A stretch of 64,000 bases of DNA from Sipunculus nudus (taxonomy: Eukaryota > Annelida > Sipuncula > Golfingiida > Sipunculidae): assembly GCA_026874595.1 (NCBI GenBank), contig CM049317.1, positions 27,651,401 to 27,715,400 of the forward strand. Direction: 5' to 3'. The notes beneath the pieces are model-generated. The model was not told the origin of the DNA. It did not search any database and saw only the letters and a list, made by a program, of their open reading frames with translations. Within the stretch, counting starts at the first letter, position 1, and the number at the start of each line of letters is the position of its first letter. Below, one piece after another: positions 35,053 to 62,586 of the stretch. Made by a program: the position numbers and the translations under genes.

Positions 35053-35157
35053 TTACTTAATAGAGGCTAATTCTGTCAAATCGATATAGGAGTAGCTTTG
35101 GTCATTAAAGCTGAGAACAGTATAATCATATGTCTGTAGCGCGGTGATTTCCTCTTT
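35053..35157 (-). CDS. CLR-B tail exon encoding an ITAM
   Basis: After acceptor TGCACAG it opens in phase 0 and runs 34 codons to TAA. It contains YTVLSFNDQSYSYIDL, i.e. YxxL, eight residues, YxxL, within the ITAM consensus (Yxx[LI]-x6-12-Yxx[LI]). Phase 0 matches the exit phase of the type II transmembrane exon 143 bp upstream on the same strand, whose donor is mutated. In immune receptors paired phosphorylated ITAM tyrosines recruit tandem-SH2 kinases of the Syk family; that function is inference here. Confidence 0.72.
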   Translation of the reverse strand, partial: KEEITALQTYDYTVLSFNDQSYSYIDLTELASIK

Positions 35158-35299
35158 CTGTGCATTTCACTTTATAGTTTGAATGTTCCTATTTTCAATA
35201 TTAAACAAACGTCTTGACTATGTCTAACGTCTTAAATGGCGTATATTTTTTCCTTTGTACAAAATGCCTTAATCTTAGTTTAGTTATATTTTCACTTAA

Positions 35300-38499: not shown

Positions 38500-38778
38500 T
38501 CATTTTGTCATATCGATGTAGGCGTAGCTTTGGTCATTTAAAGCTGAGAGCCGTGTAATCATATGTCTGTGGCGCGGTGATATCTTCTTCTCCAAAGCTG
38601 AGAGCCGTGTAATCATATGTCTGTGGCGCGGTGATTTTTTTCTTCCTCAAAGCTGAGAGCCGTGTAATCATATGTCTGTGGCGCGGTGATTTCTTCTTTC
38701 CCAAAGCTGAGAGCCGTATAATCGTTTGCCTGTGGCGCGGTGATTTCCCTTTCCTGTGCTTCAGAAGATCGTGCTTCC
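38500..38778 (-). pseudogene. CLR-C tail exon with 54-bp tandem amplification of the tyrosine motif
   Basis: After acceptor TTTTTAATTAAAG the exon opens in the phase expected from the transmembrane exon (EARSSEAQEREITAPQ). Four copies of a 54-bp (18-codon) unit follow, with shared starts at 38703, 38649, 38594 and 38540, each encoding a form of ITAPQTYDYTALSF. The third and fourth copies are put out of frame by single-base insertions (a T run at about 38635, and TTTAAAG at 38538), so translation stops at a TGA in the third copy. The end keeps a YIDM/YIDL-type second tyrosine block. Confidence 0.7.
38540..38757 (+). repeat. 54-bp tandem repeat, four copies
   Basis: AAAGCTGAGAGCCGTGTAAT begins copies at 38540, 38594 and 38649 and, in diverged form, at 38703, with spacing 54, 55 and 54 bp. 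The other tail exons (35.1 and 45.6 kb) have a single copy. The repeat is coding in origin. Confidence 0.88.
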
Positions 38779-39002
38779 CTTTAATTAAAAAAAGGAGATC
38801 GGAAAGTTAAACGTTCTCTGCCAAAAGCGTAAAGCAAGAACATTAATGTCTAAATACATCTAAAAAAATATTTGATGTCTCAAATTTCAAACTGTATTTA
38901 TGTGATTTGGCTCTTCCATGTGACCAGACATCCTTCCTATTCCAACATGACAATGGTATATCGGGGAGGTTACATAAATGGAGTTAGACCGTGTCGCATG
39001 TT

Positions 39003-44499: not shown

Positions 44500-44585
44500 T
44501 GTTAGTTAAAAGGGGCTCATTTTGTCAAATCGATGTAGGCGATGTAACTATAGGCCTATCATGCGCTGATTTCTTCTTCTTGTGT
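44500..44585 (-). pseudogene. Remnant of an ITAM tail exon
   Basis: The minus strand shows the end of a tail exon (TACATCGATTTGACAAAATGA, coding YIDLTK then stop) preceded by GAAATCA, with the middle deleted or scrambled and two stops. The downstream flank matches the flanks of the tails at 35.0, 38.5 and 45.5 kb. It is a fourth, dead copy of the ITAM tail exon. Confidence 0.6.
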
Positions 44586-44659
44586 CGTGGACCCCTTTGT
44601 ATCGTAAAAATTTTACACTTCTGCGTGGACGCCGTGGTGTAGTGAGCATGGCTATTCAT

Positions 44660-45522: not shown

Positions 45523-45637
45523 TTATTTTGACAAATCGATGTAGGCGTAGGTTTGGTCATTAAAGCTGAGAGCCGTGTAACCATATGCCTGTGGCGTGGT
45601 GATTTCCCCTTCCTGTACATCAGAAGATCGTGCTTCC
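45523..45637 (-). CDS. CLR-D exon 8: cytoplasmic tail with ITAM
   Basis: 115 nt from acceptor ATTTAAG, entering with one base to complete the phase-2 codon, ending TAA at 45523-45525. The 37-residue exon contains YTALSFNDQTYAYIDL: Y323-x-x-L326, eight residues, Y335-x-x-L338. This fits the ITAM consensus. A third tyrosine sits two residues before each ITAM tyrosine (YGY, YAY). It is homologous to the tail exons at 35.1 and 38.5 kb. Confidence 0.78.
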
Positions 45638-47438: not shown

Positions 47439-47562
47439 ACTCGAGATCTTTCCTTTAGACGTCGTCTAACACACACCGTCACTAACACAATAAGAATGAC
47501 GGCTCCAGCCCCAGTTGCATTGAGCAGAATAGGTGAAAGACCTGGATCTGCGACTTTAATAA
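47439..47562 (-). CDS. CLR-D exon 7: transmembrane helix, type I
   Basis: 124 nt, entering in phase 1 (acceptor TATGCCAG) and leaving in phase 2 (donor GTAAGT). It encodes TGAGAVILIVLVTVCVRRRL and KERSR. No basic residue lies inside the helix, so no adaptor such as an FcR-gamma type chain need be invoked; the ITAM is in its own tail. Confidence 0.82.
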
Positions 47563-47657: not shown

Positions 47658-48669
47658 CATATAAATTGGAGCGCCCATACGCTCATGTTGTAATGTATTA
47701 TATATCATAAAAGTATATATCAAATATATATCATCATAATTATTAATTTTTGTTTTTGCAGAAAACAATGCATTAACAAAGTCATTGTACTACCAGTCTT
47801 AACCTTACTCTCATTAGGATTAATTTGAAGATATGATGTTGATTTCATATAGTTCTCTGCAATTTCAGTCGAAAGTTTTTAAAAAGCATTTTCTGAATCC
47901 ATCCATTATTCAATTTTTAAAAAAATTAACCAAATGTTATTTCTGATGCACAGGTCCATGCCGCTTCATAAGCTTGTTACCTCTTTATTAAAATACAGTA
48001 TATTTTAAATTTTTGTCTGTTTGATTGGAAATTGAAGTGGATGTTTACATATATGTTAGTTTGCGAATTTTAGAGGATTCATATGTTGTCATTATATATT
48101 CATACTTATGTACGAGCTGTTTGCTTCGGGGGATACTTCCGGTAAATATGTCATATCGGTTAAGAGGTCAACAGTGGACCGTCCTGGAATTATAATAAGT
48201 ATTTACTAAACAAATAAGAGATAAATGTGTCAATGAATAGGTATATTGATATATAAAAGATCATTATTTATGAATGACTCACAGCCAATGACCGTCTTCT
48301 GACGTATTTTATAATTACTGGTTTAACACAACAAATATAATATTATATATAATATATTATATAATATAATATTATAATATTTATAAAACCTTAGCCGAGA
48401 GGTTATAGATTTAGAAACCCGCTTTGGAACCACCGGACGTTGGTATTTATATACATTAGTTTGTTTCGGATTTCTCATGAAACACTCATCAGTCCTTGTT
48501 TAATATAGAAGCTTGAAAAATTAAAGTCTACATAATATATAAACATTTTACTTTTCCTATATTTAAAAATGCAAGCCACTTTCGTAAAATCCATAGCCTT
48601 ATCCAGCTAATTCTTCATTGCGTCAATGCGGTGTTTATAACAGCGAAATATTTATACTAACAGCATTAC

Positions 48670-48966: not shown

Positions 48967-49095
48967 CCAGGACACACGCATAGTTATGCTTGGAATTACA
49001 ATCAGCAGGTTTCCAACCTCCATCAACTTTGATGACTGCACATTTCCTTCCTTGGCTGTTCAATTCGTACGTCCAGTTGGTCCACTTTAGAGGTT
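48967..49095 (-). CDS. CLR-D exon 5: CTLD2 C-terminal half
   Basis: 129 nt, phase 1 at both ends, acceptor TTATCAG, donor GTAGGT. It reads KWTNWTYELNSQGRKCAVIK and GGWKPADCNSKHNYACVLG, with the last three CTLD cysteines. An NWT glycosylation site is present. Confidence 0.85.
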
Positions 49096-50121: not shown

Positions 50122-50346
50122 TTGTTTTAGCTTTCCAGATGCCACGTGTGAGCCCTATCAAGTACTCTCCTGTGTGGATACTCTGTTCTACCTCTTTCAA
50201 AATGGTATTATCTGCTAACAAATGACCCTTCCTTTTCCCGCATGCTGCTTACGCTTGATGAAAAGTTTTGTTTTCTTTGATCATCATGACGCATCCATTC
50301 CAGTCTTCCTCATCATGGCACTGGGGTCTTGTGCAGTTGGTACAAT
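50122..50346 (-). pseudogene. CLR-D exon 4: CTLD2 N-terminal half with TAA
   Basis: 225 nt, phase 1 at both ends, acceptor TCTAAAG, donor GTGAGT. It reads DCTNCTRPQC, then CVMMIKENKTFHQA, then TAA, then AACGKRKGHLL. Apart from the stop it matches CLR-E exon 4 throughout (CILMIEEKKTFYQA, TACRSRKGQL). Confidence 0.8.
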
Positions 50347-50484: not shown

Positions 50485-50610
50485 CTTCTGATTTACAAAT
50501 AAACCCCGGTATCAATGAGAAGCAGTCTACAGAATACCTCTTTTGAAAACCTTTGGTGATTGCACATTTGTGGTCCTGACTCCTCTGTATTACGAGACTA
50601 TCATCCTCAT
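50485..50610 (-). CDS. CLR-D exon 3: CTLD1 C-terminal half
   Basis: 126 nt, phase 1 at both ends, acceptor ATTTTAAG, donor GTAAGT. It has HKCAITKG, YSVDCFSLIPGFIC and ends KSE. The three cysteines are in canonical positions. Confidence 0.82.
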
Positions 50611-50784: not shown

Positions 50785-50973
50785 TATATTCCTTATTCCA
50801 AGATATAAACTGCCATTTTCCAAGGTCATACAACTCAATCAACAGCCACGACTCATGAAGACTTGTTAGACTTAATTTCTCTGCAAACTCATGATTTTGA
50901 GCAGGGGATTGGATGATAGGTAAAGACCTATTCCATCTGTTGCAGTATTTCAATGCTTCGTATTTCGTCAATG
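50785..50973 (-). CDS. CLR-D exon 2: CTLD1 N-terminal half
   Basis: 189 nt, phase 1 at both ends, acceptor CTTACAG, donor GTAAAT. It encodes TKYEALKYCNRWNRSLPIIQ and ESWLLIELYDLGKWQF. It is open and closely similar to CLR-E exon 2 (TKYEALKHC). Confidence 0.82.
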
Positions 50974-51622: not shown

Positions 51623-51680
51623 CCAGGCTACAATGACATATATTGACATATCCCAGACTATTTGCAGATAGCCAGATCAT
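51623..51680 (-). pseudogene. CLR-D exon 1: decayed signal peptide exon
   Basis: 58 nt, phase 1, donor GTCAGTA, the same length and donor as CLR-E exon 1, ending CHC before the splice site in both. It encodes MIWLSANSLGYVNICHCSL, which lacks the strong hydrophobic core of CLR-E. It is recognised by homology. Confidence 0.55.
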
Positions 51681-54160
51681 AGATGACATGGTTGCTATGC
51701 GTTAGAAAATACAACCTATTCTTCTCTTGCATACAAATATAATGCGCCTTTAGTTAGGTTATTGTAATAACTTGCATCTACTTGGCGATAACAATAATTT
51801 TATCCTGGTTATATCTATTTTCATCACACGTGATATTATCCCATTTGTTTTTACTGATATACGGGAAAAAAAAGCGAAACAAATAACACAATAACCATTG
51901 CTGCAGGGGCACGTATTCCCTTTGATCAACACACAGGTTCTTTTAGGGCCATCGGCGGGGGATTGTTGTTTTGTGAAACATCCGTATTTGACCAAATATG
52001 AACTAATGGCTCGAGATAATGCACTAATTATTATTGTCCTACTTTTAAATACAGCCAAAGATAGAGGGATTAGAATCAGGTAGAACGGTCTAAAGATTAA
52101 CAAGATTTGTCTCACTTCTGTTAATGTTTATTGTAATATTTATGGCACCATGCCTTGCCCTGAAATATTGTCTGAAATATCGGTATTTGAAAATACCGTG
52201 GCAAAATAAACACATTAAATTAACTAATAAAAAACATACCATAAAACTTATAAGAAGGGCTTCATTTTGATATAGATATAGATGAATGACAGCAGAAATG
52301 CTGATCATATTTAATACTGCTAAACCGTATCTAAACGCTGACACTCCTCAACCGATTATCATGCGCTTCTGAACACGTGAGATTTTATCGCATACATACG
52401 CTAACAAACTTTAATCGGCGCATTTCGTTAGAAGCTGGACTATAAATAACGTTTATGTAATTATAGATGCCTGGCACGAAGGGAAACCGATTTACTGATT
52501 TAACAAAGCAATTCATGAAACCCCCATAATAAAAAATATGATCCCAGGCATGTTATACCGGATAAAATTGACTCCATCTAATTGTCTGTCACAAATTAGA
52601 GATTACATTAAGAGATTAACCTCTTCTGCTTTAATTAAAATTGAAAATTCTCCATTCATTTATTTCTATTAACCATTCATTTACATTATGTTCAATAGGT
52701 TTTAATTTAGTATGACGGGATCATATAATCAAACTTTTCCATATAACAATTCATATTCCGTGAATCATATATGAATATCCTAAATTGGCGTCCTTACTAT
52801 AACATCTGGGCTGATTTTTTTTTCATGTACTTATATATAATAAGATTTTTTTTACTGCTGACCATTTTCAAAACATTAGCGAACATTCTCTATTTTTTTT
52901 TCCATATGCATTATCTTACACTCTGTTCTATGACTGAATATTATCAGACGCTACGCAGGCAGTATTGTGAACTTTTTTTATCAAGAGACAGATCGATTTT
53001 AAAATTATTTCACAGTAACCACCATGTCGGATTTTGATAGAACGAAAGGCAAATAAATATATTGACAAAGTTATGAGACAAACGCATATTGAAATGTTTC
53101 CATAATTTCTACAACATCATGCAGGAACGTAGGGTTTAAGCACAACAATTATGTTAATGCTATATTTTTTGTTGATAAATGTGTGTTCAACATATATTAC
53201 CGAGTCTTAATTTAAAATATTATAACATTCTCGACATACACACAAATCATACAGTTAGAACATATAAACAACAATTCTAAAACATGAGAAACGAAACGGT
53301 TCTACTTTACCAATCCTTGTTCATATGTGAGACCCCGATCTGCGGACACCACGTTGGGACGGACACCCCGTGTAATGGACAGGCTTCGGAATGACAAGCA
53401 TTTTTACTATCTTAAGAGCCCGTCTAGGGCAGACATCCGAGTATTAATGACAACAGACACTCTTCCTCCGCCAAAACGTTAAAACCACCCGGATTAATGG
53501 ACGCAGACGGCCCCCTTTGCCGGTTTCAGAACAATTACCTAGTAACTGCGATTATGTTCTGTTTCTAGTGAGCTTCTCACCACTTAAAAAATCATTTTTC
53601 AGACATGTCGCTTTGAAAACAGTACAAAAGACACTTTCACTCCATTTACCTGAAACTTTGTAATTTATTAGAAAAATGTGAGGGTTTGGAGCGATCTAGT
53701 TTTTGTAGGATTTAACTGATATTAAATAGTCCTCCTGATTTCCCGTTATATTATTATCTGATTAGCCCGAAAATGATAACGTATTTGTCAGGTGTTACGC
53801 ACATAAACGGTCACGGGTCATGCCCATCCGCCGAACAGGGGACTCGGTTTAAACTCGCAATATCTTGGAGTTGTCAGTCCCGTTATATGCAATTTTACAG
53901 TTAGAATATATTGTGACCCATGGAACTGACATGAGCCAAGCAATGATTTTTTTACATACGCCTCACAAGGGTAAATCACAAGACGCATAGAATACGACTT
54001 TTTATGTATTTATTTTTGTCGTTTAAGGCAACCGTCTCCCTTTTTTAAGCTCTCTTATCTAATTCTTAATCAAAGTAGGTACAACCACAGAGTTACATTT
54101 CGGTTTGGGACTACGTTACAGGGCTGTAGCACTCGTTTCCTATCATATAATTCATATATC
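51681..54160. other. Gene-free interval
   Basis: Two adjacent hydrophobic open frames on the minus strand (51.76-52.34 kb) have no recognisable domain, no clear splice structure and no relatives in the window. The piece 53.3-53.56 kb carries GGACACC-type direct lines (like the short repeats at 32.3 and 42.6 kb). Nothing else is supported. Confidence 0.45.
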
Positions 54161-62300: not shown

Positions 62301-62586
62301 GTACATTCAGGGGATAAATTGACCTTTCTATTAATATTATCGCCCTGCAGGTCAATAATAGGACCCATAGGGCACTTTTCCGATAGCACAATGTGGTAAG
62401 AAGCTGTGATAAACAAGCGGCACACATGAAATACTGAGTATACAAAAAAATAAATGTTAAACTATAGTATAATCAGAGTGATCAGCAACTGGTTATCCAA
62501 AAATATATAAAAAAAAGTGTATACTGACCCTCGCGACAATGGCACACAAACAAAGATCCACAAAATAACGCATACAACAGCCACAT
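58905..62586 (-). CDS. CLR-E: two-CTLD single-pass receptor, intact (8 exons)
   Basis: Eight exons give 465 residues without a break: signal peptide (1-19), CTLD1 (20-124; cysteines C30-C121, C98-C112), CTLD2 (125-244; C162-C242, C220-C234, plus extra N-terminal cysteines 126, 129, 134 and 145), Ser/Thr-rich stalk (245-271), transmembrane helix (279-303) and a 153-residue tail. The tail has YLVP (336), YLSL (359), YSLV (397), and a proline stretch from 425 (PPPLPLPLSRPP). Neither CTLD has EPN/QPD, so ligand type is open. The tail differs entirely from the ITAM tails of CLR-B to D, though entry phase (2) is the same. Seen: exons and motifs. Known: CTLD and TM families. Inferred: surface receptor with SH2/SH3-type signalling. 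Confidence 0.88.
59794..59917 (-). CDS. CLR-E exon 7: transmembrane helix, type I
   Basis: 124 nt, entering in phase 1 (acceptor TAATTAG) and leaving in phase 2 (donor GTAAGT). It encodes LLLVAIGAGFVVLVVIVTVC then VRHSLK. Homologous exons of equal length are at 39.3 and 47.5 kb. Confidence 0.86.
60183..60263 (-). CDS. CLR-E exon 6: Ser/Thr-rich stalk
   Basis: 81 nt, phase 1 at both ends, acceptor ATTACAG, donor GTAATA. It encodes SFISSTVSESTSEKPTTF, a probable O-glycosylated stalk. Confidence 0.8.
60521..60649 (-). CDS. CLR-E exon 5: CTLD2 C-terminal half
   Basis: 129 nt, phase 1 at both ends, acceptor CCTTTTAG, donor GTACAT. It reads TWMNWTFEINSDGKTCAIIK and GGWEPADCDRKHEFICVE. It is strongly similar to CLR-D exon 5. 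Confidence 0.88.
61080..61310 (-). CDS. CLR-E exon 4: CTLD2 N-terminal half
   Basis: 231 nt, phase 1 at both ends, acceptor TTTACAG, donor GTAACA. It opens DCATCKSTKCYNVTKD, then GCILMIEEKKTFYQAITAC and LIGLTRGSWRADE. A Cys cluster precedes the domain. Confidence 0.88.
61462..61587 (-). CDS. CLR-E exon 3: CTLD1 C-terminal half
   Basis: 126 nt, phase 1 at both ends, acceptor ATTTTCAG, donor GTGTGT. It has HNCAITKG and YSVDCFSVIPGYICILE, three canonical cysteines. Confidence 0.88.
61840..62028 (-). CDS. CLR-E exon 2: CTLD1 N-terminal half
   Basis: 189 nt, phase 1 at both ends, acceptor TTTAAAG, donor GTAAAT. It has TKYEALKHCEKQKMALPIVN and ESWLMPELKDLGNWHWTSG, the standard CTLD1 first half. 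Confidence 0.88.
62529..62586 (-). CDS. CLR-E exon 1: signal peptide
   Basis: 58 nt, donor GTCAGTA, phase 1. It encodes MWLLYALFCGSLFVCHC, a good signal peptide. The start is the only ATG in this frame before the hydrophobic run. Confidence 0.82.

Follow-up and report, generated by a model that had tools for sequence, protein, structure and literature searches.

Candidate single-chain lectin-like receptors with an ITAM tail exon in Sipunculus nudus

An ITAM consists of two YxxL/I boxes with 6–8 (up to 12) residues between them, placed in a cytoplasmic tail. A minus-strand exon at 45637–45523 of the 64,000-nucleotide stretch of Sipunculus nudus DNA analysed here (the window) encodes YTALSFNDQTYAYIDL, and the question it raises is whether this peptide is the tail of a lectin-like receptor that signals through its own chain. 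On reading the sequence, YTAL and YIDL are found to be separated by the eight residues SFNDQTYA, and the original prediction that the exon encodes YxxL-x8-YxxL is confirmed. A second register can be read in the same tail, where Y30-A-Y-I gives YxxL-x6-YxxI. With two YxxL boxes present, the tail is not a hemITAM, which has a single YxxL.

The motif itself carries little weight. Among 2,086 stop-to-stop open reading frames of at least 20 residues in the 64-kb window, 20 contain YxxL/I-x6-8-YxxL/I with low complexity excluded. Shuffling the window 40 times with dinucleotide frequencies preserved, after removal of dinucleotide runs, gives 10.4 ± 3.2 (the real count is still 20 after this removal). 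The exact YxxL-x8-YxxL form occurs in three frames, against 1.15 ± 0.94 in the shuffles. The real window exceeds its shuffles, but as chance alone should supply about ten ITAM-class motifs in each window, a single occurrence proves nothing, and the case rests on homology.

Gene models of CLR-D and its open paralogue

Comparison of the window with C12:6600501–6700500 yielded eight-exon models for both the gene carrying this exon, CLR-D, and a paralogue. The features of CLR-D are:

51623–51689, minus strand: exon 1, signal peptide, MSSMIWLSANSLGYVNICHCSL, placed by means of DNA alignment blocks shared by the paralogues
50785–50973, minus strand: exon 2, first half of CTLD1
50485–50610, minus strand: exon 3, second half of CTLD1
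50122–50346, minus strand: exon 4, first half of CTLD2, broken by a TAA
50249–50251, minus strand: in-frame TAA (HQA-stop-AACGKRK); the corresponding codon of the open paralogue encodes serine (HQASVACGKRK)
48967–49095, minus strand: exon 5, second half of CTLD2
48106–48183, minus strand: exon 6, stalk, 78 nt, of equal length in the open paralogue
47439–47562, minus strand: exon 7, transmembrane (TM), ending CVRRRLKERSR, with phase-2 donor GTAAGT
45523–45637, minus strand: exon 8, ITAM tail, EARSSDVQEGEITTPQAYGYTALSFNDQTYAYIDLSK followed by a stop, with AG acceptor and phase 2; relatives at 35 kb, 38.5 kb and C12:6660350

The exon set of CLR-D is complete, and so are its splice sites. Exon 1 gave no match in protein-level BLAST searches upstream at two thresholds and was recovered by a scan for signal exons together with the aligned DNA blocks; judged by eye, the hydrophobicity of its signal-peptide core is apparently lower than in relatives. 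Homologues of the TM exon lie at 39.3 kb, 59.8 kb, C12:6659233 and C12:6639119. The codon split between exons 7 and 8 is GT+G (CGA GT/GTAAGT at the donor end, AG/G GAA at the acceptor start), in agreement with the earlier statement that the phase of the tail exon fits the TM exon at 47562–47439.

The TAA at 50251–50249, overlooked in that earlier work, lies inside CTLD2 and upstream of the TM and tail exons, and CLR-D as modelled therefore cannot yield a receptor. The idea that CLR-D is itself an ITAM receptor is thus not supported. In a 211-column comparison with the gene at 62–59.8 kb as outgroup (rows typed by hand, the stop entered as X, some junction residues omitted), 13 residues are unique to CLR-D and 15 to the paralogue (binomial p 0.85), the outgroup alone differs at 40, and at 39 columns all three genes differ. 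The ectodomain dN/dS between CLR-D and the open paralogue is 0.38 over 220 codons, two unmatched CLR-D codons and the stop being omitted. Complete exons and splice sites and the lack of excess amino acid change point to a stop that arose recently, belongs to one allele or reflects an assembly error. On sequence grounds the loss of CLR-D looks recent, and the gene has the appearance of a recently broken or null-allele member of its family. The stop may be an assembly error or a null allele, or may be bypassed by skipping of exon 4, which at 225 nt could be skipped with preservation of the frame.

The paralogue (C12:6655304–6660464) lies on the same chromosome, about 21 Mb from the window, and its eight exons match those of CLR-D, with equal lengths save for exon 2 (183 vs. 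189 nt). Its model reads through 348 residues without a stop, with GT-AG boundaries at all seven introns, and encodes, in order, a signal peptide, CTLD1 and CTLD2 (two exons each), a stalk, a TM segment and a tail. The hydropathy maximum falls in 19-residue windows starting at residues 278–283 and contains no charged residues, which fits a receptor without need of an adaptor. It is followed by RRCLRKRSR and by a tail that bears the motif YTALSFNEHNYNYIEL and ends in YTALSFNEHNYNYIELTK; a TM exon and basic stretch precede the tail boxes in CLR-D and the paralogue alike. Four N-glycosylation sequons are present in the 348 residues. A complete receptor is thus found in the paralogue model but not in CLR-D and, given the nonsense codon in the latter, the working example has to be sought outside the window: the paralogue is probably the working gene.

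The ectodomain is lectin-like to differing degrees. CTLD2 of the paralogue matches the Pfam family Lectin_C (E 1.4e-8; 35.9 bits, cut-off 22.6), and the gene at 62–59.8 kb scores 54.4 bits over its whole ectodomain, the best stretch again being CTLD2 (2.4e-14). CTLD1 of the paralogue matches no Pfam family, that of the 62-kb gene reaches 20.9 bits, under the cut-off, and weak PDB matches link CTLD1 to NKG2-D (E 0.055–0.062). Calcium-dependent sugar-binding C-type lectins are marked by EPN/QPD and WND motifs. Inspection of the 348-residue paralogue by eye revealed none of these, and GGWEPADC stands at the WND position.

There are further relatives, some of them also broken. One on the minus strand at 62586–59793 has open ectodomain and TM exons (TM ...VRHSLKQPVQV); a search for its tail exon found no ITAM exon. 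Another, at C12:6636085–6639223, has a clear signal-peptide exon and TM segment, with a frame break in CTLD2a near the position of the CLR-D stop. A copy at window coordinates 65.6–67.6 kb, past the window end, carries stops.

Copies and evolution of the tail exon

Used as a DNA query against the 1.43-Gb genome, the tail exon gives at least seven matches. They fall on contig C12 and mark four places: 45637–45523, 35 kb and 38.5–38.8 kb in the window, and C12:6660355. A protein query with E up to 10 recovers these four places again, with at least six matches. Besides the tail exon of CLR-D, the window contains:

35071–35166, minus strand: third tail copy, YTVLSFNDQSYSYIDL, both boxes kept
38503–38780, minus strand: repeat-bearing tail copy, with a YTALSF unit about every 54 nt; frame-shifted
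44520–44603, minus strand: degenerate tail-exon remnant with the second box only (AYIDLTK) and stops in the alignment; tblastn E 0.029

At CLR-D (YTAL-x8-YIDL), the open paralogue (YTAL-x8-YIEL) and the 35-kb copy (YTVL-x8-YIDL), three of the four places, both YxxL boxes can be read in a single open frame, and all three share the two boxes, the four tyrosines and the x8 spacing. No matching TM exon was found adjoining the 35-kb copy. In the 38.5-kb copy the NDQSYAYIDM end is in a different frame from the YTALSF units; the four YTALSF copies and frame breaks at 38540–38780 on the minus strand represent repeat growth within an ITAM exon. The original prediction had placed an ITAM in the receptor's own tail, within a tandem array. 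The first part survives as far as the motif is kept in paralogues, but not for CLR-D, which is broken. As to the array, four tail places were found genome-wide, of which only one, outside the window, belongs to a gene shown to be complete.

Between CLR-D and the paralogue, 96 of 115 aligned columns of the tail exon are identical (83%). Its flanks reach 55–60% identity: the neighbouring intron matches in 112 of 205 columns, and the sequence 3′ of the exon in 62 of 103 and in 125 of 214. At the protein level 14 of 37 tail residues differ, none of them at the four tyrosines or the two box leucines. By simple counting, the chance that 14 changes in 37 spare the four box residues is about 13%, and it falls to about 4% when all four tyrosines and both leucines are counted; the sparing of these residues is accordingly supportive only. 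There are 16 amino acid-changing and two silent differences (dN 0.22, dS 0.08), and for the 35-kb tail dN/dS is 1.26 against CLR-D and the paralogue alike. With dN exceeding dS, no ordinary codon-level purifying selection is visible on the tail exon. Of about 28 silent sites in the tail 2 differ, against about 71 of about 192 outside it (Fisher p 0.001, from rounded counts), with no matching reduction in amino acid changes. This silent-site conservation fits neither gene conversion, given the 55–60% identity of the flanks, nor ordinary protein constraint.

A Syk-like partner and the reading of the tail

A receptor of this kind would call for a Syk-type kinase. A Pfam SH2 search of the genome lists 49 places, and SHP2-, PLC-gamma-, p85-, RasGAP-, Csk- and Abl-like SH2 domains were recognised by eye among the 20 slices read. 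The tandem SH2 sequence of human SYK gives 14 genome matches, of which the best is a Csk-like place on C8. A first collinear Syk-like set lies on C4 at 71605736, 71607452 and 71609353 (E 5e-4 to 1e-3 each), and a second at 71643086, 71662956 and 71663808 (E 6e-5 to 0.03). The joined translation of C4:71605736–71609541 matches SYK in PDB entry 7q5t with E 4.3e-39 over residues 3–177, ZAP-70 following close behind and CSK next (1.6e-15). This translation spans the inter-SH2 region and the first part only of the C-SH2, and the result concerns the SH2 pair. Two SH2 domains joined by a Syk inter-SH2 region, the arrangement of Syk and ZAP-70, are thus encoded at C4:71605736–71609541, and judging from the sequence such Syk-like pairs are apparently encoded more than once. 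An N-SH2-like exon at C4:71541492, the third of its kind here, adds to the two collinear Syk-like SH2 sets, so that all of them fall in the roughly 120 kb of C4:71541492–71664011. This looks like a local expansion of Syk, in which the PDB comparison covers the first set only.

The explanation we favour, and hold to be fairly probable, is a small family of type I, single-chain ITAM lectin-like receptors that recruit Syk, the working gene probably being the paralogue. Members would comprise a signal peptide, two C-type-lectin-like domains, a stalk, an uncharged membrane span, a basic stretch and an ITAM tail of about 40 residues. Once expressed, such a receptor would be clustered by its ligand, and a Src-type kinase would phosphorylate both YxxL tyrosines. 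The putative Syk-type kinase of the species could then dock by its tandem SH2 domains on the doubly phosphorylated tail and set off an activating response, phagocytic or cytokine-inducing, without an adaptor chain. From this we infer that the family may form the "independent activating receptor system" suggested earlier.

The main functional rival is an endocytic or sorting tail, because YTAL and YIDL/YIEL each also fit the YxxPhi endocytic signal. The boxes would then be read by AP-2 in a scavenger or uptake lectin, and the ITAM spacing would be incidental, as a spacing that arises about ten times per window by chance might well be. Uptake needs just one YxxPhi box, however, whereas the x8 spacing, both YxxL boxes and the four tyrosines recur in all three open-frame copies, and a Syk-like tandem SH2 is present in the genome; an endocytic tail is for these reasons considered unlikely. 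It is very unlikely that the tail is inhibitory or dual, its boxes binding SHP-type phosphatases instead of Syk. An SHP2-like SH2 pair was recognised by eye (C15:31570968 and C15:31587169), but the ITIM consensus, I/V/L/S-x-Y-x-x-L/V, is matched neither by the first box (YGYTAL) nor by the second (YAYIDL/YNYIEL).

Two other alternatives concern the history of the exon. Spread of the tail exon by gene conversion or duplication would leave its nucleotide conservation unrelated to selection on the ITAM, and the scarcity of silent differences in the tail relative to the rest of the gene is what this would predict. The adjoining intron and 3′ flanks are merely 55–60% identical, though, and recent conversion would have erased differences such as those at 14 of the 37 tail residues, which makes this account improbable. 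The chances are about even that CLR-D is a pseudogene and its motif a functionless relic, an outcome compatible with a working paralogue elsewhere. The TAA in exon 4 and a signal peptide that by eye appears eroded suggest as much, as do the frame breaks of the 38.5-kb tail, the 44.5-kb remnant and the stops in the 65.6–67.6-kb copy; the intact set of eight exons and splice sites and the even division of unique residues between CLR-D and the paralogue argue the other way.

Relation to known receptors

If the favoured single-chain ITAM reading is right, its nearest counterparts are molluscan. Oyster half-ITAM C-type lectin receptors are summarised as binding Syk and leading to ERK and IL-17 (PMC13027682), and CgCLec-HTM, which has a C-terminal TM segment, is classed among single-domain lectins (PMC12842671). 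Compared by description, the receptor modelled here resembles CgCLec-HTM and CgCLec-TM1 in that the membrane-spanning lectin chain itself carries a cytoplasmic tyrosine motif, and shares the C-terminal TM segment with CgCLec-HTM. It differs from both in having a full YxxL-x8-YxxL rather than a half-ITAM, and from CgCLec-HTM in having two lectin-like domains instead of one. The razor clam protein ScCTL-1 is likewise described as a multi-domain membrane lectin with a C-terminal TM segment, but with four domains, d1–d4 (PMC12842671). The tail of oyster CgIgIT2 is reported to hold a full ITAM of the classical form and the receptor to signal via ERK (PMC11999971); it shares the full own-tail ITAM with the present receptor but, as described, has five Ig domains and is not lectin-like. 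Among the matches listed in a literature search, no full ITAM in an invertebrate C-type lectin tail appears in titles or abstract openings, subscription journals lying outside this scope. Given the known oyster half-ITAM lectin receptors and full-ITAM Ig receptor, the novelty lies in the combination, within one receptor chain, of two lectin-like domains and a full ITAM.

The definition of vertebrate ITAM-coupled CLRs covers receptors whose own tail holds the ITAM as well as receptors acting via an adaptor, "the majority" using an adaptor; those named there, Mincle, Dectin-2 and MDL-1, all act via FcRgamma or DAP12 (PMC5932189). On that description the candidate receptor shares with them lectin recognition, a full ITAM and, as proposed here, coupling to Syk, but places the ITAM in the receptor chain itself, beneath an uncharged TM segment. 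The hemITAM CLRs, listed there as Dectin-1, CLEC-2, DNGR-1 and SIGN-R3, have an own-tail motif and couple to Syk (PMC5932189). They too keep the tyrosine motif in their own tail, but as a single YxxL where the present receptor has two boxes. Vertebrate hemITAM CLRs are also of type II orientation, and the receptor here is type I.

Syk and CARD-CC/Bcl10 are stated to co-occur in molluscs and some other invertebrates, from which ancient upstream ITAM receptors have been argued (PMC5978004). A full-ITAM single-chain lectin-like receptor and a Syk-like tandem SH2 in one genome provide a concrete candidate for that predicted receptor, and offer a way to set lectin signalling by a full ITAM beside that by a half-ITAM in animals other than vertebrates. 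Rather tentatively, the lineage may have its own single-chain, two-domain, full-ITAM lectin-like receptor that feeds Syk directly, independent of vertebrate adaptor borrowing and possibly upstream of invertebrate Syk/CARD-CC/Bcl10, in a family shaped by birth-and-death evolution of which CLR-D would be a recent loss.

More distant relatives were checked for ITAM tails at four of 68 CTLD2b matches, in about 7 kb downstream of each. ITAM-like open reading frames (x6–12, at least 25 residues) occur at all four loci and were judged by eye to be chance, none being tail-like or clearly placed after a TM exon; the negative is a weak one, as a scan at this length overlooks shorter exons. A distant CTLD gene on the reverse strand of C17:18889300–18896300 (1146–1362) has a clear TM exon (...VVLVIILILFLCFCHRRTWRGISRL), and its tail exon was not found. 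Finally, eight weak CTLD2b matches with identical scores (E 0.77) are spaced about 7.4–8.1 kb apart at C16:1180017–1236123, possibly a very regular, young tandem array of lectin-like genes.
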